Shown: positions 1 through 64,000 of the stretch, piece by piece | Layout: the number at the start of each line of letters is the position of its first letter | Numbering within the stretch: position 1 is the first letter of the stretch | Source of the DNA: Urechis unicinctus | Lineage: Eukaryota > Annelida > Polychaeta > Xenopneusta > Urechidae | Length of the DNA stretch: 64,000 bases | Assembly: GCA_034190875.2 (NCBI GenBank) | Contig: CM067343.1 | Span: 14,811,073-14,875,072, forward strand | Direction of reading: 5' to 3' | Notes under the pieces: generated by a model | What the model was told of the DNA's origin: nothing | The model's database searches: none | Seen by the model: only the letters and a program-made list of their open reading frames with translations | Made by a program: the position numbers and the translations under genes

Positions 1-300
1 GTCATTTTCGCTGGACCATTATTAAAACATTCTCTGGGGACTACATTCCGAACAACGCCAGTCACTCATACACACGAGGATTGTTAATAGCTGTCATCCT
101 CAATTAACATCTCACCACAGCAATAACACCTAATATATTACATCACAATAGTATACAGATTAGGGCACAGTTCGACTGCACATTAAAGCACATTTCTAGT
201 GGCCCGATAGAACAGCGGTTCGATGCAACCATGTTAAAGCCAATTAAATGCAAATATAAGACTTCACTTACTGGTAGTTTACTCCATCGTGTGTCCATGT
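1..300 (+). repeat. Dispersed module A, copy 1 (left end cut by window)
   Basis: This stretch contains the ACATTCTCTGGGGACTACAT core followed by ACACACGA and a run of partly AT-rich sequence. It recurs in the same orientation at about 5150-5460, 6660-7000, 18460-18790, 46445-46760 and 51720-52010. Copies differ by scattered substitutions and small indels. No open frame is shared between copies. The module is normally followed by module B, but here it is followed by unrelated sequence. Confidence 0.8.
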
Positions 301-655
301 TGTGGCTGGGTTTTCGGGCGGCTAACGGGGGCCTCCGGTGAAAGGGGGAGGGGGTGGACTACTGTGTTTAGACCTGGATTATTCGTGAAGGATCCGACAT
401 CTCTTAGCAGCTGCTGTGCAGCCTCCAGGGCTTCTGTGTAGCCTTCAGGGGCCTATGGGCACTAAATCGGCGATATCGTACATGAAATTCTTGAAGCAGC
501 TACCATCTTCTGCTATCAGTTCTGCTATAAGTTTTTCATATTACCCATACTGTGGTCTTCTCATAGGCAATACTTGCGAGTCAGATTATAGGCCCCTATG
601 TATACAAGTAGAGTTATACTCTTGCTGGAAGTCAATTGTCTTTTTGTAGCTTTCT
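301..655. other. Single-copy stretch without recognisable gene
   Basis: I see no counterpart of this stretch elsewhere in the window. A 77-codon open frame at 416-649 (+) has no recognisable motif and is probably chance. A short internal duplication gives GCCTCCAGGGC and GCCTTCAGGGGC about 20 bases apart. A G-rich patch sits at about 320-355. Confidence 0.4.
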
Positions 656-1005
656 AGAAGCGAACAGTTGATGGACTGAGCTTACTCTACGGTGTGGGTG
701 GATGGGTGAAGCTGGTGTCGTCTTCGGCGCAGGCTTTTCGCCATGAATACTCACTCACCTGAATTGGTGAGCTATTTTCTGACCTACGTATACCACGAAC
801 TGATTCCTTTTTCTTCAACAGTTGTCAGATGAGCATGTCCTTTGCACTATGTGGTTGTCGGTGAAGGTTATAAAAGTTTCATTTTTGGGAAGAATTGTGG
901 GGTTTAAGAGTAGTACAGTACTGTTCCTTATAATACACATGCTTCAGACAGGCCAAGAACTTCTCGCTTAACCAGCAGCATGGATGATTTTTCATTGAAC
1001 AGCTA
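656..1005 (+). repeat. Dispersed modules D and E, copy 1
   Basis: The D part (GCTTACTCTACGGTGT through TTCGCCATGAATACTCAC) recurs at about 6160-6258, 20300-20395 and 52770-52866. The E part (CTATTTTCTGACC, then TTCTTCAACAG, then TTTTGGGAAG) recurs at about 18906-19060, 20395-20520 and 52866-53010. In two other places D is followed directly by E, so the order is inherited. No gene is recognised. Confidence 0.75.
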
Positions 1006-1029
1006 TTTTATCCAAATAGGTTCTCGATA

Positions 1030-1320
1030 AAACAAAACCTGATTAGATATCAGCATTGGGACCCAATTGTCTTTGACAGCAACATAGTCGAGTTCGAGAT
1101 GAATGTTTGGGCAGTATCTGCTCACGCTCTTGTTCCATCAGGCGATCAGTCCAAACCCAAATCTTAAGATCAATAGAACAGTGTCATTTGCTGCATCAGT
1201 TGCTTTGGTGCTTTCATCAAAGATCTTGCTATAATACAATACAGGACTCGGACATTTCCGTTGAGAAGCTCGCGACCAGCGTGCCACCTGGTTTCGTGGA
1301 ACCTAAAATGTAAACAATCG
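1030..1320 (+). repeat. Dispersed module K, copy 1, with a plus-strand frame shared between copies
   Basis: Matching sequence lies at 7210-7320, 11130-11260, 21880-22060, 34270-34400, 38820-39005, 53560-53760 and 59260-59340. On the plus strand, short peptides such as SNIVE-[LF]-EMNV and EINRTVSIAT (here NLKINRTVSFAA) recur across copies, although frames are broken by stops or shifts in most of them. I do not recognise the protein. It could be an old transposon or gene exon; conservation of DNA alone cannot be excluded. Confidence 0.65.
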
Positions 1321-1439
1321 CATTTTGTTCAATGGTAAAAGATCAATTGGCGATGGTATATACTCAAAAATACCGCTGTATTTCTAAAATTTAACGGCGT
1401 TTTTTTATAGAGCCAATACATAAAAACAAAGCCAATTAC

Positions 1440-2000
1440 TATTGACACCTTTTTATCAATTTGTGTGACGATTTATTAACTACAATATTTTGTACCATTG
1501 TAATAGTACATCCAGGGACACGACCTTCTACAGCGCGGATTTGAGAGAAAGTACGATTAAACGTGGTAGCATAAAGGTGCTTTATGCTGATAGATCGATG
1601 AGAATTGCCAAAAATTTTGTGATTATCGCTTCTCAATACACAAGAATCGGTCCTGTCACTGTCAGATTCGATAGATAGCGCTGTTTTTTGGACAGATATG
1701 GTTTGAATCTGTGCGGCACAATTACAGCTGCATTATATGGATTGGAATGCTTCAGCATTTAAAACTATTCCACTCAAAACTCTAACGCAAAATACATCGC
1801 TCTCCCGAACTTTAATATTCGCCATTATTTACGGTGAAAACTGCGGACCTGTCATTGACGAGAAACTCGAGTGATGCCCTGCCGAAAATTTTTAAGCTGC
1901 CGGGGGTGCCAAAAGATTCGAATTTATAATTCAATTTACATTATATTCTGGTGTCTGGTTCGAAATCCAACAACTCAAATCGATTAGATGCAAATTAATC
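1440..2000. repeat. Two-copy block, partner at 54360-54800
   Basis: The match includes GATTATCGCTTCT, AGAATCGGTCCT, TGTCAGATTCGATAG, TTTGAATCTGTGC and the end AATCGAGTGA-like sequence. Copy 54409-54696 (+) is an open frame of 95 codons, while this copy is broken by stops. The minus strand is also partly open in both (62-98 codons, sharing RSDNH). I cannot decide which strand, if either, was coding. No family recognised. Confidence 0.65.
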
Positions 2001-2089
2001 AAAAATGCCAAAATTTCATAGACACTATAAGACGATAGACAAATGTGTCATGGCTGAGTGTGATTAGGCAATGGCGGGGTAAACAAAGG

Positions 2090-2640
2090 CTAGAGATGAT
2101 GCTGGAGCAGGATCCAAACGGACCATTTGGTCGTATGCGCGTACAGGGTCGAGGATGTGAGGGATGGAAGCTATGATCGTTGTGAGGGTCACGTGCTTGA
2201 ACAGTCTTTGTGTTTTGTAAAAGAAGTTTTATTCCAGCATCAGTGAGACATATTTTCAAGTGACTAATGTTAGCGAGGGTCGAGGAAGGGACCACATTTC
2301 CTTTTTCTCAAGAAGCCGAAGAAAGCGAAGAGAATGGCTATTAATACAGTCGCGTCTTCTGGTGAGGCGCAGAAGGTGTTATTCACGTAGGCAAGCATCT
2401 GAGGTTTGATTGGAAGTTTTGCGAGACTTGTTAACCAATTGTAGCATTAGCCTTATGTCGAACTGTGATATACAGATAAAGGTGAGAGTTTTATGTGCAT
2501 GAAGCACGCTAAGACGAGAACATAGTTCGTGATTGATATGTATAAGTTGAGTGATTTGCACAAGTAAGCAATGTAACGACAGATGATTGTACAGGTAGTC
2601 GGAATAGGGGTCAGGCCGAAAAACTTGATGCAAATTCGCC
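2090..2640 (-). pseudogene. Unrecognised conserved minus-strand reading frame, partner at 54885-55215
   Basis: Translated on the minus strand, two diverged copies share the peptide FICxSQFDIRLxL followed by VNK, and, after a shift in frame, IPHILDxVRAY, then MVRL and SS-x-AF. The open pieces are 2379-2642 and 54902-55162. Similarity at peptide level across frame breaks suggests a decayed protein-coding exon rather than a neutral repeat, but I do not recognise the family. The fragment is hydrophobic in part and could be from a membrane protein; that is inference. Confidence 0.45.
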
Positions 2641-3165
2641 ACTGATATGCTGTTTGCTTAAGCCATGGCGCTGTTATAATCAAGGCCACGTCGCGGTCAT
2701 GCTGAGGTAAACCAGGGGGACGCCTGAAAACGAAATGCAGATAACGATGGTCAATAACTGATTAAATGCGATCGAATATAACCCTGAACATGCCCATGGT
2801 AGCATCAAACTCGTGTGCGTTGACCTTAAGTGGATAGTGCCACCTGCTAAATGGTCGACCAGTTTATTATGTATTCCTGAGATTCAAGGGTACGAATAGA
2901 GCAAATGCGTGCTGCTTTCTACAAACCGCAAGTCTCGAAGTAAACACTGTACAAAAGGTGACCTGGAACGACCTGAGTTTTAAGCGTGTGATACGGCCTC
3001 GTTATTCACTGTTATTACTATGCGTTGACGCTCCAATAAAGGACCCCATAGATTAGTGCACATGACCAGGCGAACACTTCTTTTCCACAGACATTAAATG
3101 AGAAACGGTTAGGGGCTAAGGTAATAGATTCTTGGGAAAATGACCTACAATGGACCCCTTTTTTG
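2540..3165. repeat. Block shared with 48780-49135
   Basis: Shared landmarks in order are CACAAGTAAGCAATGTAA, AGGGGTCAGGCCG, TGATGCAAATTC, GTGACCT, ATGCGTTGA-GCTCCAATAAA, CCACAGACATTAAA and GATTCTTGGGAAA. The partner lacks about 260 bases in the middle. Part of the missing sequence (2680-2835) instead matches 55210-55365, so three loci share overlapping parts of one ancestral block. No gene recognised. Confidence 0.7.
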
Positions 3166-3825
3166 ATCTCTGTCACAATATAAGGGGTCAAAGTGCGAAT
3201 TTGAGGGTGGATTGATGGTTTGTGTATGGCAAACATAGAGGCTTTGAGCGAACGCAATTGATGGGAGAGCCGCATTGGAGTAATTTGCCAAAAATTAAGT
3301 CACTGTTGTTTGAGTGATGTAGAAGGAGGAACCAATTGCCTATATAACGGCTGGGAGGCGACGGTATCTTGGTTTGTGCGTAATAAAGATTGCAGCAAGA
3401 AAATATTGCGTAGTGACAAGCAAGTATTGCCTCTGTGTAAATGAAGGATCGGGTCGGTGGTCGCGGCGTTTCAGATGAAGCACAGACAGGGAGAATAGAA
3501 TGTAAGGCTGGTGAATCTCTCAGAGCAAGAAGGACCTTGCCGTGAGATTTCCGGTAGCCGGTCTTCTCTCTCGTCAAGTCAGAATTTAGCACATTCTTAA
3601 CAGGTATGTTTGTATTTACACCTCTGACCTACGAAGCGTCCGTTACTGACTAAATTCCAGGGGATGCAAATCTGAGTACTGATTGTAGCTGTATGAATGT
3701 TCCGGAACGATAGCAGCTGTGAAGGCTTGAGTAATTTGTTCTTGAGCGAGTCGAGAAACTGGGACCATTGCCGTTGATTCCCCTCCCTCCTGATACTGTA
3801 ATTGATACTGTAATTGATTTGTAAA
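3166..3825. other. Stretch with two unrecognised minus-strand open frames
   Basis: The longest frame is 3188-3592 (-), 134 codons, and a second is 3643-3843 (-), 66 codons. No second copy was seen in this window, so there is no comparison to support coding. Another minus-strand frame across 3200-3420 is rich in hydrophobic residues but contains stops. I see no domain, signal peptide or splice evidence and would not treat either as a gene. Confidence 0.3.
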
Positions 3826-4167
3826 TCTCAAGAAAGAATGCACACCGATTGCATGCTCAAATAAGAGAATATTGGTTTATTAACCAAATGCTACATACTA
3901 GCCAGTTGTCTTGTTGAAGCTTGTTAGAAGACAGCCAACTGACCGACAGGTTGTGATGGAACAGATGCATTAGCAAAAGGTGTATTAAATCGAGAGTGAG
4001 TAGAAATAATGGGTGTTTAACTGATGCGATCTAACACCCGACATGGTAAATGATCTTGACCGGCTAACTGGTCGACGAAGACCAGTCTGAATTTGATGAT
4101 GCTGGGAACATCGAAATGGGATGGTAAGTAGTGCTACGTTTTCCGATCATTATATCTCAAAATGTAT

Positions 4168-4353
4168 TTAACTACGAACTGGTATGATAATAACGGTTGA
4201 ATGACGGAATATATCGTGTTTTTCGCGTGGTTTGAGAATAGCGACTACACAGGTATAGCAGCTCAACTCTCCGCATTCAATATAAATGGCTGCGGCGAGG
4301 CACCTGTTCCTAATGCTGGTCATTTCCAATAATTGTTCATGTAAAGTGGGCAC
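4168..4353 (-). pseudogene. Unrecognised frame shared by three loci (RCLAAA family)
   Basis: The minus-strand translation shares EQLLEMT and RCLAAAxxIEC with 50222-50467, and EQLLA plus RCLAAASYIEY with 60727-61113. The first two also share EKHDIFRHSTV. The third copy diverges downstream. The family is not recognised. Similar peptides in three diverged copies hint at former coding sequence; in the two closest copies simple recent duplication is enough to explain it. Confidence 0.4.
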
Positions 4354-4398
4354 TCTACGGGCATGGGGATATGACAGCGGAAATGCTTTGACACGTTG

Positions 4399-4695
4399 TT
4401 AACGTTGAAGAAACGTCTGAGGCATATTGAACGACCAATAAGGTGACCACTGATTGTAACAGGCTCTTGATGATGAATACACAATCGACCGAGGAGGATG
4501 GTTCAAATGAATATGTGACTGCGATCTGTAAAACTTTTTGGAAAACGAATGGAATATGTCCGTGAAATGACATGGAGAAATATTTTCCACAGTAAAACCT
4601 TTCATGTTATGCGATATGTTGAAGCTCTGTCCGTTAAGTGTTATGGCAGAAAGATGCATGTAATATGGTGTGGCTGAGCCTTGTCCTTGATGCAA
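4399..4695 (-). pseudogene. Unrecognised 98-codon minus-strand frame, partner 50863-51108
   Basis: The two frames are almost the same over about 80 residues (CHFTDIFHSFS, SQSHIHLNHPP, ACYNQWSPYWSFNMP). A third, poorly preserved relative at 27283-27516 (-) keeps ACYIHWSQYASF. Part of the same DNA is made of degenerate 27-30-base repeats like those at 27521-28130, so the open frame may partly reflect repeat structure. No known domain seen. Confidence 0.35.
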
Positions 4696-6259
4696 AATGA
4701 TGAAGCCATGACTAGGATGTATTGTGGTATGTCACAACAATTACTGCCTGAAAAGTGCTAACAAACGACAAGTCCTGTCGAATCATCGATATCATATGTA
4801 ACAGGGCACCAACCACCATCAATACTTTCCGTGCCATTACCTGTTGGATGCTCATCCTCTCAGAGGCAGATAGATCGTGTGAAAGCGTCCTGGCCCATCA
4901 GTAAGGGCATTGATGTATGCATTGTTGTTAAAATTTATTTTGGTCAATCACATATTTATTGCGTGCTAATCAGTAGAATCATCAGCCAGCGTTATTGCGT
5001 GCTGATAATCACAAGAAATGTTTACTTCGTTCCCCGCGCTCCCACTTCAGTCAGAAATTGATTTAATTGCATGCCAACATATGAAAAACAACCTATTGTG
5101 ATAGTCACGATCTCCCGCTCATTCGTCATTCCGATATCAATTATAATATAACATTACGAAAGCATAACAAGTCAATCTCGTTGGACCATCCCTCATTATC
5201 ACAACGTTCTCTCGGGACTACATCCCAAACAACGCCGCTCATTCATACACGCGATGATTGTTACAAGCTGCTCTGCTCAATAGACATCTCACCACAGCAA
5301 CAACATTATATACATCTTACATAATAGTATACAGCGTGACTGCACAGTCAACATTATCGTAAGTGGCCCGCTAAACAGCGGTTTGCAGTAACCATGTTAA
5401 AACTAAGTACATAAAAATATGATATACAAAGAAATCAATAACTGGGTTTGCACTCCTCATGATCGCCGAAACATACATTATTGTTCCTTTGTGATTAACA
5501 ACTATACCACTATCAACTCTCACAGTGGATAAATATTCTTAAAAAGAAGACACAGAATACTTAAACATTAATGCAATCCACCAGCCTCCGAAGGACACGG
5601 ATTGTTACATATTGCAAGGTAACTTCGCCAAACATTCCATTAAGGTAACAAAAATCAGTTTCTTACATGATACACACAACTGAGGGGCCAAAATGAAATG
5701 AAAAGGTTGGCAATTAAAATAAGTTAATGTGCTCTTAGAAGTCGATACAAAGCCTCACAATGGCATCGGCTTTATGAAATGCTCGTTGATGGAAATTGAG
5801 ATAAATTTCATCAATCAATCTTGAGTAAGCTATGTCAAAGTGCTTCCACGTGATGATTGAGGACGACTTTGAAATGGCCAATTCGCGTTCTTGTGACCTG
5901 ATACCTATCAAGGCTGCTGTAGCTGAATAAATCATCCAATCAAAAAGTTGGACCGTAGTCTATTGTAAATGCCCGCAGGTTGGTCACGCACACAGAGCGA
6001 TTAAGTCTCAGTTGGGTAACAACAGTGTCTAAATAAAGCAAAGACACGCTTCCACTGAAAACACAACGGCATAAATGTAAAGCCTCGTAGACTCGACAAG
6101 AAAGTAATGTATTAGTCACAGCACACGGTGAAAGGTGTCATGCAATTGACAATTGATAGACGGAACTTACTTAACGGTGTAATGGTGAGTGGCTGGGTTG
6201 GTGAAGCTAGTGTCGGCTTCAGCGAAGACTTTTCGCCATAAATACTCACCTGTATAGGT

Positions 6260-6640
6260 TTGCTTGAGGGAGTCATTCACTACGTGGTATCAGCATGTCG
6301 CCTCACGAATAACGCTTTACGTGGTTGGGCGAGAGAGTCTGTAAATTGTGGGCCTGGTGTACTGTGCAAGCTATTACGACACAAGAACAGATATGTTGTC
6401 ACGTTGTTTTTTCGCATTACCTCACTTGAACATAACACAACAATCACAGTGCCATCATTACAATTTGCAAGAGACAACAATCAATTTCTCAGCATGGAGC
6501 ATTATTTCCTGAACGGAAAACAATCATGTTGTTCGGGAGTCTGACGACAGATTCATTAACAGCAAACCTATCTTATAAGAGAAGATATGACACACACCAT
6601 GCTGTGTTGTGATGTTAATTGATTATCCATCAGAGATTTG
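6260..6640 (+). repeat. Dispersed modules W and Z (start), copy 1
   Basis: Copies lie at 10485-10810, 12780-12960, 17355-17720, 37195-37560 and 57465-57830. The landmarks are GTCATTCAC, GGTATCA-CATGT, AACAGATATG, then a plus-strand peptide like SMEHYxLN. Here that part sits in an open frame, 6260-6544 (+), 94 codons. The join with the preceding module D at about 6258 is a rearrangement breakpoint, because the partner copy of D continues differently. Confidence 0.7.
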
Positions 6641-7205
6641 CCACTCTGATCTTAATCATAATATAACATTACGAAAGCATAACAGGTCAATTACGTTTTA
6701 CCAGACTTCATTATCACAACGTTCTCTGGGGACTACATCCCGAGCAACGCCGCTCATTCAAACACGATGACTGTTAACAACTGCACACCTCACTTAACAT
6801 TTTCACTACGGCAATAACATCATATATATCACATCACAATAGTATGCAGCATAATTCCCATTATGACTGCACATTTAAGATTATCTTAAGTGGCCTGATA
6901 GAACTGCGATTTGCAGCTACCACGTTAGAGCCAATTAGATACTAACATAATATACAAAGAGTTTACTTACTGGTTGGTTACTACTCAGGATGTCCGAAAC
7001 ATACATTATTGTTCCTTAATGCTAAACATCGAAACCATAATCCACTTTCAAAGCCAGTAAATATTCATTAAACAACACAAAGCATACTAAAAATTATATT
7101 CTATCCACTAGCATCCGGATGACACGGCATGTTATATATGGCAAGAAAACGTAGCTTAACATTCCATAAAGGCTATTAAAAACACCAAACAGATTCTTAG
7201 ATGAT
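6641..7205 (+). repeat. Dispersed modules A and B, copy 3
   Basis: The match starts at AATATAACATTACGAAAGC and runs through the GTTCTCTGGGGACTACATCC core into module B (CGAAACATACATTATTGTTCC, AATGACACGG-type end). It is parallel to 5142-5660, 18458-18850, 46440-46940 and 51716-52210. No gene is seen. Confidence 0.8.
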
Positions 7206-7500
7206 ACAAACAACTGTTCCATCAGTCAATCAGTCCAGACTTAAATATTGAGATCAATAGAACAGTGTCAATTGCTACATTAATTGCTTTCGTGCTTCCA
7301 TATATAAAACATCTTTGTAAATGTATTTTAAAGTACTTCTGCAGGAGCAGATTAATGTTGCCAGTGCTCACTCGTGGGAGCAAACACGGGTTAAAATGCT
7401 CAAAAATGCGACTCTATGATAAAATAGCAACATGACCATCTGTTGTGGTCAAGCTTCCTGAGGCGATCGTGATGAGCTTATCGTTACTAACTTAATGAGT
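7206..7500 (+). repeat. Dispersed modules K, L and M, copy 2
   Basis: Module K here translates on the plus strand as ISPDLNIEINRTVSIAT without a stop. It is followed by L (CAGTACTTCTGCAGGAGCAG-like, GCTCACTC) and M (GTGGTCAAGCTTCCT). The K-L-M order recurs at 11130-11490, 21880-22340, 34270-34670, 53560-54000 and 59260-59600. Part of module A-G sequence is missing before it relative to the inferred order. Confidence 0.75.
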
Positions 7501-7509
7501 GTAACCAGA

Positions 7510-9340
7510 TAACGCCAAGCTGGATGGTTGTATTGAGGTGACCCGGTTTTGCGTTTGCTGGCAAAGTTTATTCGTGCTCTTTCTCCATTTCGGCAACCAT
7601 TCAACCCTTTGCGGGCATGACTAAAGAGCTCAGAGCTTTCATTTTGCTCTTGAGCCATTCCTGGCGTCCCAATTGCACCTTGGCTACTAGTAGCGAACGT
7701 CAAGGCAGAAGTGAGTGTGGTTAAAGTGGAAGTTGAGCTCATAATGGACACCATAGTGCATTTAGAACCCCACGGTTTAGTATGATTCTTCAGCGGTTAT
7801 AAAAACAGGTGCTACGAAGCCGTGAAGTCATTAATACAGCGAATAGACGAGGAAAAGATAGCCGAGTGAAGCGAGTCCAGACTCAGCAGAGAGTGACCAA
7901 AAGAGGCAGTGCGCGGGTATAAACGACGATAGTAAATCCTGCAGGTGGTGAGATATGGCAGGAGAGGGTTCGCACGGTAAGCTAACGGAGAGAACGCCAG
8001 AAGACGAGACAAATGAGAGATAAGGGGGCTAATTACTTACTGTTACAAACTCAATAGCATGATAATAGAGTCAACTGGACACATATACAGACTTACACAA
8101 TGCGATTCAGTCTGGAACATCAGAGTAGCCAATCAGAGCGTTATTATGTCAGTGTATATCACCGATGATGCAGAGCCGTATGCAAAAGCGCCGTTAGGAG
8201 AAGCTTACAGTGACTTAGCAGCACTTAACCTGGTAAAATTTATAGGTTACCCCAGATGACGGCTCTTCTATTATCTAGGCAAAGGTGAGTGTGCATCTGC
8301 ACAGACGCACGAGGAGCTAGTCAGGCTGGAAAGAGCCCAACGTTTACACAAGAGCATGTCGCCTGGTGATATAATTGTCTGCATTTGTATAATGGATCAC
8401 TGCTGTATTTCTTACAAGGCAACAACACCACGCAATAACCGGCCGACTCATCTATGGCCTGAAATTTGAGTGATTCTTTGTTGTTAGTCGCTTGTTTAAT
8501 TCATAAACGAGTTAAATAACAATTATAACTCACCATACCTATGGTAATATATATAATTAGCTAAGCCTAGTTGTTAGTATTCCGAACATCGACTGCTAAG
8601 TACGTAATTGGTGTTATATGAATTTATGCATCGTACATGGAGTATATGGAATCATCCGTGGCGCGCCGAACCCTCGATAGGTACCCTGCTTGCATTGTGG
8701 ATAAGTTCTGTGTCTGCCTACAAACCTACCGCTACTATTTTCTCATTAACGGATCAATGCACGTGACCCATTTCCCAAGCGGCTACACAAAGAGACACGT
8801 ACGGCGTGAAAAAATTGAACGTCGACACATTCCATTCGGACGCGTGATAACAAGAAACCGCGTTTGCCTTCGAATGAAGAGCTGCTGCTGCTGCAAAGAA
8901 TGGTTTGCCTATCAACTCGGTAACATGAAATATATAGCACTTATTCATACAAGTGGTAGTCAGAGGTTTGTTTGCGCATTGGTAACCAAGTGTACAACCA
9001 AAGACCGGGAAACATAAAGAGAGTATGCACGTTACGGCCGTAGACATGAAACGCGCTCAGCTAGCCTTCTGTAACGTTAACATGATCCATTGTACTCAAC
9101 GCCTATGAGCGGTCCTCCTATCGAGTAGCTCTGGCACATTAGAAAGCTGACGTAGTTTAATAGTTATTATTCGAGACAGGAGAGTCTATAGAAATCGGCT
9201 ATCCCCAATCTACTACAGTTGACCACTATACCTTTTTACATCAGTCATAAGGTGTATTTGGTCACTCCATGTTTAATATGCAAACAGTAATGGTTTACGA
9301 ATAATTAGTTATTAGAAAGAGCAAATTAACACGACCGGTG
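7510..9340 (+). repeat. Segmental duplication 2, left copy (partner 55505-57370)
   Basis: This collinear block begins at GCTGGATGG, passes a region open on the minus strand (7449-7754 and 7812-8012, both unrecognised), then modules O, P, R and S. The minus-strand frame at 7812-8012 shares TASFGHSLLSLD with AASFGYSLLCLD at 55830-56066. The plus-strand frame 8637-9017 (126 codons) is the longest intact copy of the module P/R frame, with SSVARRTLD and ACIVDKFCVCLQ. No family recognised for either. Confidence 0.8.
8637..9017 (+). pseudogene. Longest copy of the module P/R plus-strand frame, unrecognised
   Basis: This is a 126-codon open frame. Peptides shared with other copies include VARRTLDG-type, [ILV]V[DE][KH]FCV and NGSMxxTHF. 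Copies in the same frame include 23490-23587, 45570-45640, 56572-56772 and 60310-60400; frames at 39199, 40788 and 43964 read the same DNA in another register. A cluster of cysteines near residues 81-84 comes from a CTG-rich run. There is no known domain, and most copies contain stops, so it is at best a relic. Confidence 0.4.
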
Positions 9341-9634
9341 CATCGCTGGCTGTGTGATCGCATATTGTTCATATTGAGGACTAGCCTTATAGTCGATAGC
9401 CTAATTTATGTTGATCCCAATTAAAGTAAAATAATTATTTACGAATCGAGAGAGCGCCAAATTAAGTATCGTGCCGTTTATGCCCATGAGATGATCAAAA
9501 CAATCAGTCTCTGACTGTATTCTGCCCAAAAAGCAGATATATCGGCCTCATCTAGTCCAAAAGCTAGGTGCAGAAGCTGCCCAAGCCAGCCTGAGCATTA
9601 TTTCATATTGCTTATATTAGTCTATTTTACCTAA
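9341..9634. other. No recognisable gene or repeat
   Basis: The first bases are a short remnant of the sequence after module S (GCTGGCTGTGT). The rest is AT-rich and has no match I could find in the window and no sizeable open frame. Confidence 0.4.
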
Positions 9635-10020
9635 CCACTGAATTATCGAATACACAGCTAATGACAATTATATATTAGTTGAAGCACAATATTCATCATA
9701 TTTTGTCACGAAACTAATTTAAACGCAAGCTGCGTTTATGGTTGTATGACTCGGAAGTGCGCTGCTATCGAATTACATCATGAAAAGCTATACTAAGCAT
9801 GGTTCTCTTTGTAGGTTTCTATTTCCGTACAAATGCTCTTTACAGCTGAATAATGAGACGGTACAAGAAAACAGCACAGCATACAGCCTTTATCTTACTC
9901 ATTGCACTACCACTTGGTGTTTCCATTGATAGTTAATATATGAGCTCATGAATGGCGTCAATCACTAGCCGCTTAAAAGCTGGAACGCTTAATGGCGTAA
10001 ATGATTATGACATCTGTTAA
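9635..10020 (+). repeat. Dispersed module F, copy 1 (partner 19130-19560)
   Basis: Shared landmarks are GAATTATCGAATACACA, CACAATATTCATCAT, TTTGTCACGAAACTAATT, GTGCGCTGCTATCGAATTAC and a final GGCGTCAATCAC-type sequence. The partner holds a 62-codon open frame at 19202-19390 that is not open here. No function assigned. Confidence 0.75.
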
Positions 10021-10089
10021 ACAGATATTTCATGCACACAACTACCACTTCTACCATTGTGGCTCCCACATTTTTAGGATCAGCGTCAA

Positions 10090-22345: not shown

Positions 22346-22354
22346 GTGAATATT

Positions 22355-22356
<2 letters not shown>

Positions 22357-22452
<96 letters not shown>

Positions 22453-22453: not shown

Positions 22454-22454
22454 A

Positions 22455-36626: not shown

Positions 36627-36639
36627 ATTTCAGATATTT

Positions 36640-38200: not shown

Positions 38201-38204
38201 AATG

Positions 38205-53035: not shown

Positions 53036-53215
53036 ACTCAAAGGAACCCAAAAACCAAAAAATTGGGTACGATATATCTGTTGATGCTATGGACAGCAAG
53101 GGTAGTCCTACGTTATGTAATGAGCATAATTTGTTAGAGCTTGTCAGGAGGAACCGTTCGCGTCCGCCATTGTGTTTCGGTGAATGGTTCCACAAAACTC
53201 AGAGGAAATGACTAG
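53036..53215 (-). pseudogene. GPCR N-terminal ectodomain fragment, copy 4
   Basis: The minus strand reads ADANGSS-stop-QALTNYAHYIT-stop-DYP in the ectodomain frame, then RYIVPNFLVFGF for the start of helix 1. One sequon (NGS) remains. Frame 53013-53195 is another register of the same DNA. Confidence 0.55.
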
Positions 53216-54240: not shown

Positions 54241-55504
54241 CAAATGGATTAAACTAGGCAAGGCGCTCGTACCGGGTTTTTTTGATGATCATCTTCAGCT
54301 TGGATATGAGAGATAGTTAGTAGGATTAAAAGTGCTAGATTAAAGGTGCTTGATTTTGTGAGATCAATGCGAATCGCCCAACATCTAAAGATAAAATAAT
54401 TACGTTCAGTGATTCCAATTGCAATTGGACTCATTATTCAATGTTTTGAAGACTATGTTATGATTATCGCTTCTTGGAAAACGAGAATTAGTCCTTACAC
54501 TGTCAGAATCGATAGCGCTGTTTTCGGACATATATGGTTCGAATCTGTGCAACAGAATACCAACTGCATTATTTGGATTGGAAGGCTCAAGCGTTTGAGA
54601 CCACTCAAAACTCCATTGCGAATCGTCCAACTGAAATACATCGCTCTTCGGGACTTTAACATTCGCGGACCTGTCAGTGACGAGGTAATCGAGTGACGTC
54701 ACGAGATGCTGGGCCGGAAATTTTGAAAATGGCGAAGGGTGCTGAAAAATCGACTTTATATTTCAAATTACGATATGTTCGGGTGACTTGTTCAGAAATT
54801 GAACCATAAAAAATGAGCAAATGCAGCTTATTCTTTCATTCGGCTTCATAAAAATAATTATACAGGTGCAATGAAGGCAGTGGAGGATGAGAGAGCGGGA
54901 ACTAGGCGAACCATATGGGCGTATGCGCGCACACGGTCGAGGATGTGAGGAATATAAGCCATGATATTTGGGAGAGATGAGTCACGAGCTTCAACAGCCT
55001 TTGTATGATGTAAGTGATGTGAGTCTTGTTAACCGCGTCTAGCAATAGCCTTATATCGAACTGTGATAGACAGATAAAAGGGAGAGCTATATGTGTACGA
55101 AGCACGCTAATACCATGAAGATAGTGCTTGCTTGATAAGTATGGGTTGAGTAATCTGAACAAGTAAGCAATGTAACGACATATGGTTGTAGAGGTAGTCG
55201 GAATAGGGGTCAGGGCAACGTCGCGGTCGAGCTGAGCTAAACCATTGGGGATGCTAAGAAAGGAAGCACAGATAAAGAGGGTGAATAACTGGTTAAATGT
55301 GATCGAATTATACCCCTAAACATTACATCTGTAACTTCATACTCTTGTGTGTTGATGGAAGTTGATAGCCTGTAACGGGTCTCGGAATGAGAATGGCACC
55401 CTAGTTGCTGAAAGAGCGGTGACAGGTGTGGCATAAGTAGGCGTCGCGGTAGGTTTGGCGATCAAATAAGGTGCCCTGTTGTCATGAGGTAAACCAGATT
55501 ATGA
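54241..55504. repeat. Block shared with 1440-2835
   Basis: 54360-54800 matches 1440-2000, 54885-55215 matches 2090-2640 and 55210-55365 matches 2680-2835, all in the same order. Frames at 54409-54696 (+), 54406-54702 (-) and 54902-55162 (-) are unrecognised. The last 130 bases have no partner. Confidence 0.75.
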
Positions 55505-57370
55505 AACGCTGGATAGATGGGGTGAGATGACCCAGCTTGGTGCGCCGGCAAAGTTGATTAAAGCTCTCTCTCCATTTCGGCAACCCTTTAACCCTTTAGG
55601 ACAAAAAATAATTCCAGTCTATACTCCTGGCGTCTCAGCTCCTCTTTTTCGCCCTGCAGCGGTAGCTCACTTGATATTGTCTTGGATGAGCGTAGAAGCC
55701 ACGAATCTCAAAGAAATCGTTGTAAATGCACCTATGCTGCTGGCATCAAACGTCATGATAGAATTGACTTCGGCTGAAGTCAAAGTTGAGCTCGTAACGG
55801 ACGCCATAGTGCTTTAAGAGCTCCATGGTTTAGGGTGACCCTTCGGCGGTGACAAAAAAGTGCTGCAAATCTATGATACCAATAATATAGCAAATAGTCG
55901 AAGAAGGGACAGCAGATTGATACAAGTCCAGACACAGCAAAGAGTAACCGAAAGAGGCAGCGCACGGGGATAAACGACTATAGTAAACACCGCTAGGGGT
56001 GAGATGAAGCAGGACAAGGGATCGCAAGGTAGCCGAACAGGGAGAACGCCAGATGGCGAGGCACATGAGAGAGGAGGAGGCTAATTACTTGCTATTAAAA
56101 ACTCAATAGCGTTATAATGAAGTCAAAAGGAGAGCGTACACATATACAGATTTTAGCGATGCGATACACTCTTGAACATCAGAGTATCCAATCAGAGCGT
56201 TATTATGTCACTGTATATTACAGATGATGCAGCGCCGTATGCATTAGCTCTGTTAGGAGAAGCTCAAATTGACTTAACAGCTAGTCAGGCTGGATAGATT
56301 GCTACGTTTACACAGGAACATGTCACCAAGTGATATCATTGTCTTCATTTGTATTATGCATCGCTATTGTATTTTTAAACTGTTCGGTTCTTTGTCGTTA
56401 TTCCCACGTTCAATTCCTAAGTGAGTTGAATAGCAATTATAACTCACCGTACCTATAACAACATATATATTGAACTAGACATAGATGTGAGTTTGCCGAA
56501 TATCGACAGCCAAAAGGTAAAATATGTGTGTTATTGCTGTTATATTAATTTATGCATCGTACATGGAGTAGATGCAATCATCCGTGGCGCGCCGAACCCT
56601 CGATGGATACCATGATCGCATTGTGGATATGTTCTGTGTCTGCCTACAAGGCTACCCCTGCTATTTTCTCAATAACGGATCAATGCAAATGACCCACTTC
56701 CAAAACGGCAACACAATGACACACGTAAAGCTTGACAAAGGCTCCCTCAACCATCTTTCATGGACTAATTAATGACGACCCTAATTTCTTCTAGGACTAA
56801 GCTATGTTTGGAAAATTACGTGACAAAATAACAATTGAGCGTCCACACATTCCATTCAGACGCGTGATAACAATTAACAACTTTTGCATTTCAATGAAAA
56901 GCTGCTGCTGCAGCAACTGCTGCAGCTAATTTTTCTGCTGCAAAGAAGGGTTTTGCTAGATTCGGTAACATGAAATATATAGCACTTCTTCATACAGGTA
57001 CTATTCCGAGGTTTATTTGCGTATTGCTTACTATGTGTACAACAAAAGACAGCAAAACATAGAAAGTATGCACGTTAAGGCCAGAGACAAGACACTCGCT
57101 AAGCTAGTCCTATGTAACGTAACATGATCCATTGTCCTTGTGACCAATGAGCGGTCCCTTGTTCGAGTAGCTTTGTCACATTAGTAAGCTGGCGTTGATT
57201 AATTACCGCCAACGGTTATTATTCGAAACAGGAATGTCTATGGAAATTGGCTATCCCCAATCTACTACAGCGGCCTTTTATACCGTTTTATATCGGCCAT
57301 AAGGTGCAGCTGGTGACTGGATGTTTATTATGCGAACAATAATTGTTTGCAAAATATTTATTTTAGCCCA
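55505..57370 (+). repeat. Segmental duplication 2, right copy (partner 7510-9340)
   Basis: The frame 55527-55817 (+), 96 codons, is open here but not in the partner, where the minus strand is open; this argues against either being a gene. P contains the frame 56572-56772 (+). In R a CTG/CAG-rich insertion at about 56899-56945 enlarges the shorter CTG run of the partner. Confidence 0.8.
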
Positions 57371-57664
57371 GCATTTTATTTGCTAACAGCTGATATTTTT
57401 ACATATTAACCGCACAGTAATAAAAGAGAACAGGTTTAAGAAACACAGACCTTAGGAGCAATTTCAGAGGGTCAAGCACTAAGTGGTATCAACATGTCAT
57501 CCCATGAATGCCTTATTATGCGTTTAGGAAAGCGATGCTGTAAATTGTATAACTGATATATTGTTTCGTAACGAAGATCCTTGTTTGGGCGTTACGATGG
57601 ATGCAGCCAAAAAGCCCAACAAACCAAACAGATATGTTGCATTTTGCATTATCTTACCTTAACG
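57371..57664 (+). repeat. Modules C (end) and W, copy
   Basis: GCTAACAGCTGATATTTTTAC, GAACAGGTTTAAGAAA and GGTATCAACATGTCATCC match 37095-37230. A frame at 57601-57792 (+) contains the W peptide LSVEDYLLDMKAKL. Confidence 0.7.
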
Positions 57665-58745
57665 TAATAAACCATCACTGTACCAACATTGTCAATGTGC
57701 GAAGGAAAATTCTCAGCGTGGAGGACTATTTGCTTGATATGAAAGCAAAGCTGCGGTCGACATATTCATCAACAGTATGCGTAGCTTATTAGATAAACTA
57801 TTACACAAATCTTGCTGTGCTGTGATTAAAATTACCTCCGACAATGACGGCGACAGTTCTTAGGCGTTTTCCTGATGGCGTACACAAACCACGAAAACGT
57901 ATCATTAACCCCCAATATCAACTGACCATTCCCACTGCAGCCGCATACGTAATTCACAGTAGCAGCTTTGGCAGTATTGATATTATCATCAGTACATGAA
58001 TCAGCTGTATCTAGAAATCGGCTTTGCTTCTGATGTTATTTGCCGAGGGCAGTTGCAGCACTCATTCAAGATCCTCGAGGTATGTTACAAGAATGCATAG
58101 TCAAGACACATTATCCATTACAATGTTTTATCATGTTCGTCGTTTGCATTCTTCGTGGCTTTCGCATTTAATAGACACGGACTCGGTCTCACATAAATAT
58201 TTTATTATTCGACCAGGCGGCGATAGGGAGAAGGCAATCGTTAAAAGTAAAGATAACATGTAACTTTATACTTCAGATTAATATATTAAGGCATTGAACT
58301 GATATGCCAACACAACGGACCAATAATATAAACACTCCCGGAGGGCACAATATGTCACATGACAAACACCGCCCTATTGGCAGCTGCGCATTCGCAATAA
58401 TAATTACGTGCAATTCTCAGTATTAAGCGGTTGTTTAACATATCTCACATTTCAAATATATCAATGATGTCGTTTGCTATGAGCACAAAGGTGGGCGCAT
58501 TGTATTGAACGGACGACAGCATGGCACGTGCGACATGATTATTGGGCCAATAGTTCCATGGGGCATGACTATTGCCAGGTAATCGATCTGATAGTTCCAT
58601 TTTCCGATCCACGTCTGTTTTCATTTTGACGACACTATCCACCAAAGATTCGAACAAGCCATTGCCTCATCGTCAAAACACATTAACCACGATATCATTT
58701 ACTCCTTAGATTCGTCACACAGATGTCATTTTATGTATAACATAA
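57665..58745 (+). repeat. Segmental duplication 4, right copy (partner 12780-13800)
   Basis: Modules W (end) and Z. A small scrap of A (CATAACAAAGGTATATCTGTTGG) is still recognisable at 58740-58770 before the jump to the receptor fragment, which dates the deletion of A-E as later than the Z-A junction. Confidence 0.85.
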
Positions 58746-58990
58746 CAAAGGTATATCTGTTGGACAAGCCCACATTTCTTAGATGATAAAAAAACGCTAA
58801 CGATGGGTACGATATATCTGTCGATGATATGGGCGGCAGGGTGCGCTGTCAGGAAGAGTTCGTTATGATAAGGGTAGTCCCATGTCGAGCTATAATTAGG
58901 GTTTGTAAATGTTGGCCAGGAGGTACCGTTACAAGTCCACGATTGTGCTTATGCCTACGGTTCCACCAAACTCACAGCAATGCCCAGACT
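58746..58990 (-). pseudogene. GPCR N-terminal ectodomain fragment, copy 5
   Basis: The minus strand reads CNGTSWPTFTNPNYSSTWDY, then, with a frame change, HIIDRYIVPIV. Two sequons (NGT, NYS) are kept. The body is missing, as at 38205-38430. Confidence 0.6.
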
Positions 58991-60310
58991 GAAGGTTCTT
59001 TGTTGCAAGTCTCGGCGTATTGTCACCCTGTTAGTACAAGCCACAATCGATGTCAGTTTCTACAACACAAATAATGAATCGAACATAACCAGAGAGGTGG
59101 CTTAAATTATTGGCATATAGCAACGCAACATGGACACAGCTTGAAGCAAAAACTTGTAATTAGTCTAAACGTGGACAACAGGTCGTATTGTGGGATCTAC
59201 AAAACAGTATTGTGGCCCGTATTGTGGTAATAAAGTGCTATGATATTGTGTCAAATACTGACGGACATCTTGAGATCAAAAGAACAGTGCCACTTATTAC
59301 AGATGTTCCTTATCTACACATTGTAGAAAGTATACCTTCTGTATAAGGAGGTGATTGCTGCTAGTGCTCTCTCACTAAGCTAAGTCGAACAAGGACTGTT
59401 AATAATGCTAAAATATGTGACTTTATGATATAAAAGCGTCTGATTTACTGTTGTGGTCAAGCTTCCTTGGGCAATCGGGGTGAGCACCTGTTCCGCACTA
59501 TGCAGAATAATGGCTCTAGTTGGTGAACAGATGGTACGCTTTGTGTTAGCATAACTACGTTAATTCAGGTATCGATTCATCAATGCATTATAATGGTTAA
59601 CATTTAGATAACAGATAAGTCGCTGTGTTATGCAGCGCAACGGTGGTATCAAAAAATCATACATATAAATATAAATGTAGCTTCTATTAGACGGATCCTT
59701 AATTGTGATCGTTAGCCAATACTGTACAATGTCAGGTGTGACAGCAACGCATTTACCAAGGCCATGTTAAGACTGCCCTGTGTATTAGACATTGCAAGAA
59801 GTAATTATCAACAATAAAACCAACTATGGGTGACACATTCCTGTAAATAATAGAGTGATACGAAACTATAGAGCTAGATAGCGCCTCGTGGTTACAATCT
59901 CATGAAGACACATAACCACGGATATACAATAAACGAAAACCGCGAGTCTCATTTCATAACGAGCCGTGCGGAGTATGAACCAAGTCCCAAATTCAGAGTA
60001 CGCTGCACCGTCGCAAGTAGGAATTTTACGTCTGCTCTACTAACATGAAATGAACTAAAAGGGGCTCATATATTTAAATTGTTGGGGGGGGGGGGGAAGA
60101 GGGTCAAGCTGCTAGGTTCTTTGTCGTAAATCAATTGTTTATTCATGAACGAATAAAATAACGATTATAACTCACCGTACATATGACAGCATATATATTG
60201 AGCTTGGACTCATTGTCAGTTTTCCGATCATCGACGATCAATAAAGTTAGTGAGGTGATTAATTGTTGTCATGTAAATTAATGCATCATACCTGAAGTAG
60301 ATTCATCCAT
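58991..60310 (+). repeat. Modules T, K, L, M, N, X and P, with a 13-base G run
   Basis: The order is the same as in other copies. X is joined to P across the G run at 60084-60096, skipping O. Frame 58829-59074 (+) crosses from the receptor fragment into T on the opposite strand and is not a gene. Confidence 0.75.
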
Positions 60311-60840
60311 TCGCGGCGCGTCGATCACTCGATGGGGACCCAGCTTGCATTGTGAATAAGTTATATGTGTGTCTACGAGACTTCCCCCACCTATTTTCTG
60401 CATAACAGATCAATACAATTGACTCACAGTCCAAGCAACAACGCAATGACGCAGGTACGGCGTCTACAAAGGCACCCTTGATGATCACCCCAACGATCGA
60501 ACATTTCTGTTCAATCAGGATGATACTGTAAATAATTAGCCAAATAGTTCATACTAGCGAATATTCTCTTTGTAGCATGCTGGATGACAGTCGACTGAAA
60601 GAAAAGTGGCTATTGCAAAGGCACCTTCGCTTGGTGTATTAAGTCTATGAACTCGGGACTGAGTAAAAATAGAAGTGTGTGAAATTGACTCAAGTGAACG
60701 ATCTAACACTCGAGAAAGAAGCTGATCTAGATTTGGCTAACTGGTCGACATCGGCTAGTCTTGATAAGTTGATGCTTGGAATATTGACTCTGGGATGATA
60801 AGCAGCACAAAGGTTTCCCGTCATTAGATTGTAAATCTAA
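60311..60840 (+). repeat. Relative of the front of the 1.587-kb tandem unit
   Basis: The sequence from GGCGCGTCGATCACTCGATGG to CCCGTCATTAGATTGTAAATC follows 39233-39765 with moderate divergence. It is a single-copy relative outside the array and shows what the locus looked like before tandem growth. Confidence 0.8.
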
Positions 60841-61545
60841 CTGTTTCACACATAGGTAACGAGTACAAAGGTGTAACAACATAGGTGGAGTGACACCACC
60901 ACTGGCCGCGCTCCAAAAATGCATCCCAAAATGAAATATGCATACCATCCCGTACTCAATATATGAGGCTGCAGCGAGGCACCTATTGACAATACCGTTA
61001 ATTGCCAATAATTGTTCTCGCTTTGTGGTCAGTATAGATAGCAACGATGAGCGGGGCTGCATGGTATTATTCATCGGCCAGCTGGCAAAACAAACGTTAT
61101 CAGAGACCGGCAAGTGATGATTCTTGTATTGACACCGACCTTACTTAGCTTGACAAAGAGAGAAAGCTATTTGTGAAACTACCGAATGGATAAGATTAAT
61201 TAGCATATGCGATATATCAAGGTGATTTCAGCTGTGTAACGGTACAAGGCAGCTAACAGCAGCCTATCTCATCAATTGACATGTTTTGTAGGAATATACC
61301 TTGCTGCCTCTAACTAACACAAAAAGGATGAACAGAACATAAGTATGTCATTGCGAGGCGAAGTGGGGCAGGGATAGGCGGGCAATATGATCAGTCTAGA
61401 AATTCAGTTGCCACCTCAAATTACAAATAACAACCGCTTATAATGACAGTCGGCTTGGGTGTTATATACTGCTCATCGTTTGTATTTAGTTTGTATAAGT
61501 GGCATTCGCGTTTCATAAGTTCAGGTTTGATCTCGCATAATTATT
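60841..61545. repeat. Block related to 26870-27400 and 50395-50830
   Basis: Holds the minus-strand frame 60727-61113 (128 codons) with RCLAAASYIEY. The remainder matches the other copies through CATATGCGATATATCAAGG and ATAATGACAGTCGGCTTGGG. No gene is recognised. Confidence 0.65.
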
Positions 61546-64000
61546 TTATGTTTCTAACAGCCGGAAATACGGACAACGTGAAGCAGTATAATTCAGATTA
61601 ATAAATTAAGGAAAAGTACTTATATGCCAACAATAGACAGGTATGATTGGCTTACCAGTTTTGAAAACTCTGGCTCCATATGCTAAGTCAATATCCACGG
61701 CCCCAACCCTAGAACATTTAGTGTATATGTAAGGCTGACCATAAATATGGCACAGACTCATAGGCGTCCGTTGAATTAAGGGAACCCATATAACAGTTAC
61801 GAGTCATTTGATTTAGCCGGTGTTGAGGAGAAACAAATGTATTCAATTCTTTTAAGTTCAAAATAAGCATAAAAGTACCCTGTTTCTTGGGTCTAGAAAC
61901 GTTTGAAGAAGTTAATTCCTCGAGAACGTGCATCGACTCTACAATGGCATCTTTACCCAATAATCGGCTAAAATTACGTTTGAACTCGAATAAATGTTTA
62001 AGGTTTATGCTTACATAGAAGATAGCAGTCATCGCACAGTTGGCACTCTTAATCTCACATTAATGTCCAGCTAAAAGTACACACAAAAAAAAAAAAACCA
62101 ACCAATCATAAACTCAAAGATAACATTCAGAGAACTGGGGAATCCAAGCCTGTGTGAAGCATGAGTGAACTCCCTGAGATAAAACACGCCAACGATATTC
62201 AGGCCCTGCCGCGCGCTCTCTCAAGTGATCTAGATGTGCAGATGAAATTGGTCGAATATCACATGAACCATGACCTAAGCCAAGAGTACGAGGTGCCGTT
62301 GAACATATGAATTTTTTGTCTGCTCTGTAAACATGAAATTAACTATAAAGGGTGCATATGTTGATGCAACAACACAAACTCCTGGACAGCAACTCGTCGG
62401 ATGAATTGATACTGTAATCCTTCACAATAAGCGCCCGGGTGAGTCTCCTCAGCGATACCATCTCTTACGCATTTGGGTGGAATGAGGCCCACGACAGCAT
62501 ACACTCTGATGGTCTTATGGCACGCGATACACACTGAAACATCAGAGAAGTCCATCAGAGCGTTATTATAGCACTGTATACAACATATGAAGCAGCGCTG
62601 TACGCAATGTCGCTGTTAGTATAGGCTCACAGTGATTCAGCAGCACTTAACGCAGTAACGATTTATGGGTAACATCAAGATGACGGCTCTTCTATACTCT
62701 AGGCAAGGGTCAATGTCTATCTACAACAGACACACGAGGTGTTAGTCTGCCTAGATAGCACTCTACCTGTTCATGGTAACACGTTACCTGCATTTGTATT
62801 ATGCATCATTGTTGTATTTCTGACAAGGCGGCAACCCCATGCAACATCCGGAGGGCTGATCGATTTCCCGATGTATTGTGGTGGTAGTTGGGGGAGGGGG
62901 GGGGGGATACGGTTGACCGTACCTATGATCGCATATGTACTGAGCTAGGTATTATTGTTAGTTTATCCAACATCGACAGCCAATAATGTAAATTAGTTGT
63001 TTTATTGTTATACTAATATATGAATCATACTTGGAGTAGATGCATTCTACAGTGGCGCCGAATCCTTGGTGGGAGCCCTACTTGCATATTGGATAAGTTA
63101 TGTATCTTCCTAGAACTCTTCTTCTCCCTTCTTTTTCCCCACAGCGGATCAACTAAGTGGCTCACTGTCCAATTGGTAACACAATGACACATGAGCGTCC
63201 AGAAAGACTCCCGCAATGAGCTATGTTCGGTATGTTTGACAAATAACATGACAAATATGAATTATAAATGAGGTAATAATGTTGTGGCAGTCGACAAAAT
63301 CGAAAAGACGTCTTGGGAGAGAACAGGTGTGACAGCGACAGTACTGGGAATTGGTCATTAGCATGTCGGTTACGACATAAGGATTAAGCATCGAACACAT
63401 TCCATTCAGACGCGGGATAACAAGAAACCACGTTAGCATCGGAATAACGAGTACCTGCTGGGATAAAATTGTTAAAGTGATTCAGTAACACGAAATGTAT
63501 ATAAATTGTAAAAACGGTTGCCAGTCTAATGTTATTAATGACTCAAATGCTATTGATGTTTTATTTAATTAACTCGAGGTGTGACTCTTCAGCCTTCATT
63601 TTGCTTCCAATACCTCGTTAGTAATTGTACCAACTAATACTGGCAAGGTAGGCTTAACAAACTGTGATAGCTGATCGAACAGCCATGAAGGCTGGCATGA
63701 AATAACGCGTCATAATGATATACCAAGTTGTAACAATGCTGAACAAGTGTTAAGTTCTGGACAACTGGACCTTAACAACAATAGATACACGAATAACATT
63801 GATAATGCATGATGTAAGGAGGGCGCATCGATATAATACGATCAATTACTCTACTACGAAGGAGACAATGAAAATTTCATTGAAACAAATTCATCGGAGG
63901 TGCAGAAGCTAGTATCATACCTCTGCCACGTAAAAAATAGCACATTAGTGCATTATTATGCTGATGTAGTTTACAGATGAAGCAGCGCCGTATGCAATCG
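61546..64000 (+). repeat. Segmental duplication 7, right copy, cut by window end (partner 23600-25870)
   Basis: Carries the second DIRS-like relic, then X, O, P (with a broken G run at 62890-62906), R and O. Identity with the left copy is high. The sequence runs past 64000. Confidence 0.88.
61718..62032 (-). pseudogene. DIRS-like reverse transcriptase fragment, copy 2
   Basis: The minus-strand frame (104 codons) reads LLGKDAIVESMHVLEELTSS, then SRPKKQGTFMLILNLKELNT, then LNQMTRNCYMGSLNSTDAY. This is the N-terminal third of a DIRS-type reverse transcriptase, from the fingers up to motif A, with PKK-x-G and LILNLKELN plain to see. It stops before motif B. It is longer than copy 1, which has lost about 90 bases of the fingers. 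The upstream DNA on the minus strand has stops in all frames. Confidence 0.82.

Follow-up and report, generated by a model that had tools for sequence, protein, structure and literature searches.

How could a stretch of 64,000 nucleotides, here called the window (C2:14.811-14.875 Mb in a genome of 1.19 Gb), come to consist almost wholly of copies of its own parts, facing one way and kept in one order? A first-pass annotation had read it as an ancient tandem array of a unit of ~10-15 kb, later broken by deletions and fitting no named class of repeat. We conclude, at a probability of roughly 0.92, that the window is part of a tandem array of GPCR genes with their intergenic DNA, one that decayed and was then re-duplicated.

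The window matches itself in one orientation

Strict blastn comparison of the window with itself returned 280 direct and no inverted matches. Laxer scoring (E<=1e-3) gave 386 direct and 5 inverted matches, four of the latter in runs of the AT dinucleotide (at 22.3 and 36.4-36.6 kb) and the fifth a 36-bp palindrome; three Markov-simulated control sequences gave no match under this scoring. Many inverted matches had been named beforehand as the outcome that would speak against the array. At E<=1e-6, self-matches covered 84.1% of the window. The claims that most of it matches itself and that these matches are direct are borne out. A profile search with 639 window tiles, run with three simple-repeat stretches masked and with a first pass on the plus strand and a second on both, yielded 3997 plus-strand and no minus-strand hits, self-hits counted. 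The LINE insertion at ~28.3-32.8 kb is an exception to this self-matching, having no match elsewhere in the window.

Most alignments among in-window copies showed 60-85% identity; one reached ~93%, and a 1.59-kb sub-array 97%. Distant cluster copies of window modules were up to 92-100% identical among the genome-search matches listed, and broken blocks have been re-duplicated recently. A codon-phase test on 244 self-alignments gave no convincing coding signal (best p 0.0014, uncorrected), and a tRNA scan of the window returned nothing.

A unit with an open receptor frame has the same module order

At C2:17.76 Mb, an open receptor frame of 415 codons lies inside a 7.5-kb unit whose flanks carry modules of the window, arranged as they are there. 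The frame matched Pfam 7tm_1 at 1.3e-31, which makes it a class A (rhodopsin-family) GPCR, and its best solved relative was the TRH receptor (2.4e-19). As a reference from outside the window we used unit R (7,490 bp; positions 979-8468 of stretch L033, which is C2:17.755-17.765 Mb), in which the receptor occupies R 4025-5269.

All 77 window tiles placed on R lay on its plus strand, and their order reversed 21 times in 76 steps, compared with 37.8 +- 2.5 in permuted orders (0 of 100,000 permutations as low). When the recent 1.59-kb tandem copies were removed, 66 tiles gave 18 reversals against 32.5 +- 2.4, and no permutation was as low. Merging neighbouring tiles into 47 blocks, the harshest order test, left weaker support, with 17 reversals against 23.0 +- 2.0 and 258 of 100,000 permutations as low. 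The fixed order proposed for the modules is thus far from random. The Z-A junction reported at 18458 and 46440 proved real, both sites being unbroken stretches of R (R 1827-3179 and R 2458-3663), and several sharp module ends are joins between parts of one unit.

R explains 53% of the window, the remainder being known only as modules common to other fetched cluster stretches; R and these stretches together cover 90% of the window with sequence from outside it. Window matches in turn cover 86% of L033, on both sides of the open receptor frame, and 118 of 118 are plus. Against the whole 30-kb open-frame stretch, the window gave 262 plus and 90 minus matches, and the 90 fall on an inverted ~2.6-kb segment present twice in that stretch. 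The features of the window are collected in Table 1; the array runs on past the window end.

Table 1. Unit fragments, receptor relics and other features of the window, with matching positions in reference unit R
Feature	Position	Strand	Match or remark
Unit fragment	1-1227	+	R 2825-5809 with gaps
Receptor 3'-end relic	828-978	-	
Unit fragment	3823-6259	+	R 184-3965 with gaps
Unit fragment without receptor	6508-8793	+	R 1827-7433 with gaps
Modules mostly missing from R, repeated in C2 cluster	8815-10840	+	At least 55 matches, all listed ones on C2; 100% identical over 2026 bp to C2:15348482-15350507 (genome search listing)
Unit fragment, receptor-upstream spacer	11117-12596	+	R 5686-7409
Unit fragment	12865-13781	+	R 1834-2803
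Unit fragment	15553-19103	+	R 884-4215, gapped
Receptor 3' relic	18961-19103	-	
Longest merged unit fragment, spanning receptor relic	19586-23599	+	R 3131-7386
Receptor (rhodopsin-family GPCR) pseudogene, two aligned pieces	20438-21540	-	20517-21540: 76% to open-frame gene positions 1-1085, length not divisible by 3 in 7 of 12 gaps; 20438-20518: gene positions 1165-1245
Unit fragment	23585-25111	+	R 2292-7465 with gaps
Short unit fragments	25117-26764	+	R 34-116, R 6977-7247, R 7008-7332
LINE (non-LTR retrotransposon) insertion, foreign to array	28320-32815	+	Reverse transcriptase encoded in frame 30087-32369; frame 28598-29332 resembles ORF1 in position alone and has no significant Pfam match
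Fused unit fragments	33158-35784	+	R 6922-7077 joined to R 4500-7430
Receptor pseudogene relic	33322-34062	-	Open-frame gene positions 17-770, 75% identity; length not divisible by 3 in 6 of 7 gaps
Unit fragment	36018-39412	+	R 1406-7469, gapped; at 38201/38218 a junction R 2804|5006, most of receptor gone
Receptor 5' relic	38218-38481	-	
Recent local tandem expansion of deleted unit	39113-45755	+	Period ~1.59 kb, ~4.2 copies, 97% identical
Unit fragments	46089-49581	+	R 2458-3854, R 886-1402, R 6990-7465
Pass through unit	49589-56774	+	R 36 to R 7483, gapped; lacks receptor core (deletion 52998|53016, R 4094|4965)
Receptor 5' end and 3' end	53016-53261 and 52930-52998	-	Remain beside core deletion
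Unit fragment	56766-60450	+	R 1-7434, gapped; at 58755/58791 a junction R 2820|5000, similar to the 38.2-kb one
Receptor 5' relic	58791-59059	-	
Unit fragments	60500-63303	+	R 214-2438, R 6489-7465, R 43-110 with gaps

Receptor relics and the readings that set the receptor aside

The receptor is present in the window as nine broken pieces, all on the minus strand; the relics lie in their place in the unit and on the right strand. Codon-position bias was significant in none of the nine (lowest p 0.051). Among window frames, one 7tm_1 match (3.6e-8) cleared the curated cut-off and another (3.3e-5) fell below it. For the surroundings, loci were grouped from 69 of 116 receptor matches (C2, 14-18 Mb), the other 47, remoter receptors elsewhere, being excluded. 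The cluster at 14.80-15.70 Mb holds at least 35 receptor loci, and in none of the 35 listed there did a stop-free match exceed 148 of 376 residues. Among eight loci listed at 17.72-17.78 Mb, two were stop-free over all 376 residues and a third over 346.

Might the array by now serve something other than the receptor? It is improbable that the receptor body was lost preferentially while the spacers went on being copied, the array having been taken over by, and maintained for, a non-genic role. The roles that could be nominated (for example, recombination hotspot, chromatin element, regulatory reservoir, or gene-conversion donor for the open-frame array) are long shots.

Another reading would make the array a macrosatellite: long, tandem and non-genic, with the receptor frame merely incidental to it. 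The long tandem unit, the placing of all listed matches on one chromosome and the excess of spacer modules over receptor relics would suit such a repeat, but the receptor frame at 17.7 Mb is open and recognised across the 7TM domain, at least 35 cluster loci hold receptor pieces, and neighbouring long units are not homogenised, given the 60-85% identity of most in-window alignments. In the single pair formed by a duplicated open-frame block, moreover, 4 of 1245 positions differ in the receptor (0.3%) and 156 of 4442 in its flanks (3.5%), an ~11-fold lower divergence of the receptor that could reflect gene conversion instead of selection. We consider a macrosatellite highly improbable.

We give very little credence to the idea that spacer modules were kept and re-copied for a role of their own without the receptor, as a regulatory or chromatin element or a non-coding RNA. 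Copy depth in the window and its flanks was 6.4 over the receptor region (~2-5 in its middle) versus 12.0 over the rest of the unit, about half; however, inherited deletions account for this difference. The spacers also diverge widely and gave no evidence of constraint, and a scan of the window found no Rfam family at gathering threshold.

All listed module matches lie on one chromosome

Three module queries against the genome returned at least 62, 51 and 55 matches. All listed ones lie on C2, and a single 0.92-Mb cluster takes in 159 of the 168; the cluster counts are lower bounds from search listings. Such searches score best candidates, and both the confinement of the modules and the lack of an intact cluster copy hold among the matches listed. 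Minus-strand matches made up 18 of 62 (with 44 plus), 15 of 51 and 12 of 55 of those listed, so the single orientation that had been claimed stands inside the window and fails across the cluster.

The LINE, the one recognised transposon in the window, matched 17 contigs on both strands. With every listed match of the three queries on C2, the modules do not behave like ordinary genome-wide transposons. A nest of one transposon family inserted with target-site or strand bias, for which numerous copies with sharp ends might speak, is rejected and given next to no weight, since several of these ends match joins inside one unit, the listed module matches lack the LINE's dispersal over chromosomes, and among the 15 frames scanned of the 106 in the window of >=75 aa, only LINE and receptor frames had a significant family (one set of ten among the 15 gave no Pfam family).

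Origin of the array

Order, strand and receptor relics together support the ancient tandem array, later broken by deletions, that the first-pass annotation proposed. Its estimate of the unit was partly upheld: one open-frame unit is ~7.5 kb, and modules mostly absent from it yet common to other copies (those of window 8.8-10.5 kb among them) would lengthen the ancestral unit toward 10-15 kb. Its view that no named class fits did not hold. The array falls in a named class, tandem clusters of class A GPCR genes, in a decayed state: its members code for a 7TM receptor of class A, intact and dead members occur in one family among the matches listed, and copies lie head to tail with common flanks on one chromosome, inverted blocks also being present. 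The event is clear but ordinary gene-family decay, and the array belongs to a known type.

The ancestral unit would have comprised one rhodopsin-family (class A, peptide-receptor-like) GPCR gene, coded on the minus strand in one long open frame, and at least ~6 kb of DNA between genes. Its head-to-tail multiplication presumably came about by unequal crossing-over or a similar tandem duplication, which would explain the one orientation and one module order of the window. Cluster copies would then have lost the receptor through frameshifts, stops and deletions, the latter often taking out its body, and further duplication of broken copies, in blocks of ~1.6 kb upward, may have spread the deletion junctions. 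The broken copies are probably without function. Beyond three small trees, we infer the order of duplications; the trees use only copies matching >=60% of a module, and the M1 tree therefore holds five of eight window copies.

With a related array of open frames as the ruler, a puzzling same-orientation mosaic can be recognised as a fossil gene array. Nearly 1 Mb of broken array and a small array with intact receptors together document, in graded steps, how GPCR genes of one animal were duplicated, deleted and duplicated again. The case suggests that repeat finders would class such spacers as unknown repeats.

Comparison with known systems

A literature search not aimed at the species itself turned up no earlier account of this array. 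Among macrosatellites, D4Z4 and DXZ4 likewise have a multi-kilobase tandem unit containing a reading frame; neighbouring copies here are far more diverged, with nested deletions. Newman and Trask in 2003 reportedly placed human OR7E pseudogenes in segmental duplications. OR7E, too, comprises GPCR pseudogenes spread through duplication of larger blocks, but its copies lie on many chromosomes, whereas the module matches listed here lie on one.

Vertebrate olfactory and vomeronasal receptors, as the available part of the source describes them, are single-coding-exon GPCR genes in tandem arrays, presumably formed by unequal crossover, with many pseudogenes (PMC1995454), all of which resembles the array described here. 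Unlike them, the receptor here is peptide-receptor-like, and the 0.92-Mb cluster has no intact copy among the matches listed. In the crown-of-thorns starfish, 12 receptors span 140 kb in a tandem GPCR array; the accessible portion of that text concerns receptor genes and contains no word beginning with "pseudogen" (PMC5442662). GPCR expansions are also reported from cephalopods (PMC6408891); what these and the starfish array share with the present one is that they are lineage-specific arrays of rhodopsin-like receptors.

Orientation and order of the repeats

Self-comparison of the window gave 280 direct matches and no inverted ones. Laxer scoring yielded 386 direct and 5 inverted matches, four of the latter lying within AT-dinucleotide runs and the fifth being a 36-bp palindrome; at E ≤ 1e-6 its matches covered 84.1% of the window, and three first-order Markov simulations, used as a control, gave none. 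In profile searches, 639 overlapping tiles returned 3997 plus-strand and no minus-strand matches, self-hits included; three stretches of simple repeat were masked, and both strands were covered by the second pass only. The same-orientation mosaic of repeated blocks, or modules, described in the first-pass annotation is therefore real and strong.

Module order was measured against a ruler taken from outside the window, the 7,490-bp reference unit R (L033:979-8468, where L033 is a 10-kb stretch at 17.755-17.765 Mb of C2, the contig that carries the window at 14,811,073-14,875,072). All 77 window tiles that match R do so in plus orientation, and they cover 53% of the window. Along the window, the position in R drops back 21 times in 76 steps, compared with 37.8 ± 2.5 in permutations, none of 100,000 being as low. 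With recent tandem copies removed, 66 tiles gave 18 fall-backs (permutations 32.5 ± 2.4, none as low). Merging collinear neighbours into 47 blocks, a step that throws away most of the collinearity under test, left 17 fall-backs against 23.0 ± 2.0, with 258 of 100,000 permutations as low. The 77 tiles make 22 rising runs along R, indicating about twenty partial unit copies, the 1.59-kb tandem copies among them. The earlier proposal of a tandem array broken by deletions holds. Deletions can be seen as joins in R (Table).

The unit and its living array

Two frames on the minus strand at 20.4-21.3 kb hit the rhodopsin-like receptor family, but only one of them passes the Pfam cut-off; a second receptor relic lies at 33.3-33.8 kb. 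A genome search with the latter found receptor frames, free of stops and up to 415 codons long, at C2:17.73-17.78 Mb, and we sampled this living array in 30 kb of sequence near C2:17.7 Mb. The frame at L033:5003-6247 encodes a class A receptor (7tm_1, 1.3e-31; also Srw, 2.5e-20), for which the TRH receptor is the nearest solved structure (2.4e-19). Window modules flank it on both sides; matches to the window, all 118 of them plus, account for 86% of the 10-kb stretch. The unit here is ~7.5 kb between successive copies of a frequent module; receptor-match spacing in the protein search varies within the array. The whole 30-kb stretch gave 262 plus and 90 minus matches to the window, the minus ones sitting on a ~2.6-kb inverted segment that occurs twice within a 5-kb tandem duplication. 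In a duplicated block of the living array, 4 of 1245 receptor positions and 156 of 4442 flank positions differ between the copies, which suggests that the gene is under selection or gene conversion.

Receptor relics and deletions

At the DNA level the window retains nine receptor pieces, every one on the minus strand. Gaps not divisible by three occur in six of them, and the other three are gap-free; mismatches to the living gene showed no significant codon-position bias in any of the nine (lowest p 0.051). An alignment of 37996-38656 with 58533-59216 runs continuously across the joins R 2804/5006 and R 2820/5000, so this deletion was probably made once and copied afterwards. Over the window and its flanks, mean depth is 6.4 for the receptor region versus 12.0 for the remainder of R, the copies not being independent. 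A non-genic account, by which spacer modules were kept and re-copied for a role without the receptor, strikes us as very improbable.

Features of the window, with the corresponding joins in reference unit R (receptor at R 4025-5269)
Feature	Window position	Strand	R position	Basis or remark
Receptor piece, at or near 5' end	20517-21540	-		DNA alignment to living gene
Receptor piece, at or near 5' end	33322-34062	-		DNA alignment to living gene
Receptor piece, at or near 5' end	38218-38481	-		DNA alignment to living gene
Receptor piece, at or near 5' end	53016-53261	-		DNA alignment to living gene
Receptor piece, at or near 5' end	58791-59059	-		DNA alignment to living gene
Receptor piece, 3' end	828-978	-		DNA alignment to living gene
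Receptor piece, 3' end	18961-19103	-		DNA alignment to living gene
Receptor piece, 3' end	20438-20518	-		DNA alignment to living gene
Receptor piece, 3' end	52930-52998	-		DNA alignment to living gene
Deletion join	52998/53016		4094/4965	
Deletion join	38201/38218		2804/5006	
Deletion join	58755/58791		2820/5000	
LINE with reverse transcriptase frame	28320-32815			Largest window stretch without self-match is 28,322-32,816
Minisatellites, 54-bp and 27-bp units	14109-14410 and 27838-28080			Motifs related

Distribution over the genome

Genome searches covered a 1.19-Gb assembly (926 contigs) and scored the best candidates, so module counts are lower bounds and weaker copies may lie elsewhere. 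A 2-kb module gave at least 62 matches (44 plus, 18 minus), the 1.58-kb tandem unit at least 51 (36 plus, 15 minus) and window 8815-10840 at least 55 (43 plus, 12 minus), all listed ones on C2. Between 14.8 and 15.73 Mb lay 55 of 62, 49 of 51 and 55 of 55 listed matches, respectively; of the nine outside, four were at 0.47 Mb and five at 17.70-17.71 Mb. Inverted blocks are present in both this cluster and the living array. Unlike the modules, the LINE protein query found at least 66 matches on 17 contigs (C1 to C17) and both strands, with related frames of up to 98% protein identity among those listed. C2:15348482-15350507, on the opposite strand to window 8815-10840, is listed as 100% identical to it over 2026 bp, and would be a very recent copy, a gene conversion or an assembly duplication.

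The leftmost R match lies 16.3 kb before the window. A 100-base assembly gap precedes it by ~1.2 kb, and the assembly may therefore be what sets the array's left edge. Farther left, C2:14.711-14.793 Mb holds a different, minisatellite-rich array of direct repeats (best alignments 82-96% identical) that reaches a 100-base assembly gap and in parts reads N. At C2:14.937-14.951 Mb, ~62-76 kb right of the window, the array is interrupted by an insert whose GC is near 0.48 and whose long frames we take to resemble those of a Polinton/Maverick-type virus-like element.

A protein search with the living receptor gave 116 matches, of which the 69 on C2 at 14-18 Mb were sorted into loci. At least 35 loci fell at 14.80-15.70 Mb, and no stop-free match in the 35 listed exceeded 148 of 376 residues; seven further loci, short matches with stops, were found only with the 33.3-33.8 kb relic. 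At 17.72-17.78 Mb, two of eight listed loci were stop-free over all 376 residues and a third over 346.

Duplication history

In trees built for three modules (17, 14 and 37 copies), short-distance pairs joined a window copy to a right-flank copy, such as window 53670 with flank 96670 (97% over 236 columns) and window 35615 with flank 71125 (98% over 169). Living-array copies formed a single group in all three trees. Their sister in the 14-row tree was the window/flank pair 46434 and 77051, which lay nearer to this group than to the remaining window copies. Copies at 17.70 Mb grouped with flank copies. Judged from these trees, the two regions are linked by exchange or shared descent, and blocks of the broken array have undergone further duplication. 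The most recent event seen within the window is the 39.1-45.8 kb stretch, 97% identical.

We conclude, with a probability of about 0.92, that the window is a slice of a decayed tandem GPCR gene cluster. Unequal crossing-over is the presumed mechanism, and the broken copies are presumably non-functional. Such clusters are of a known kind; with no intact member among the listed cluster matches, this array is an unusually legible example in its size and preserved order.
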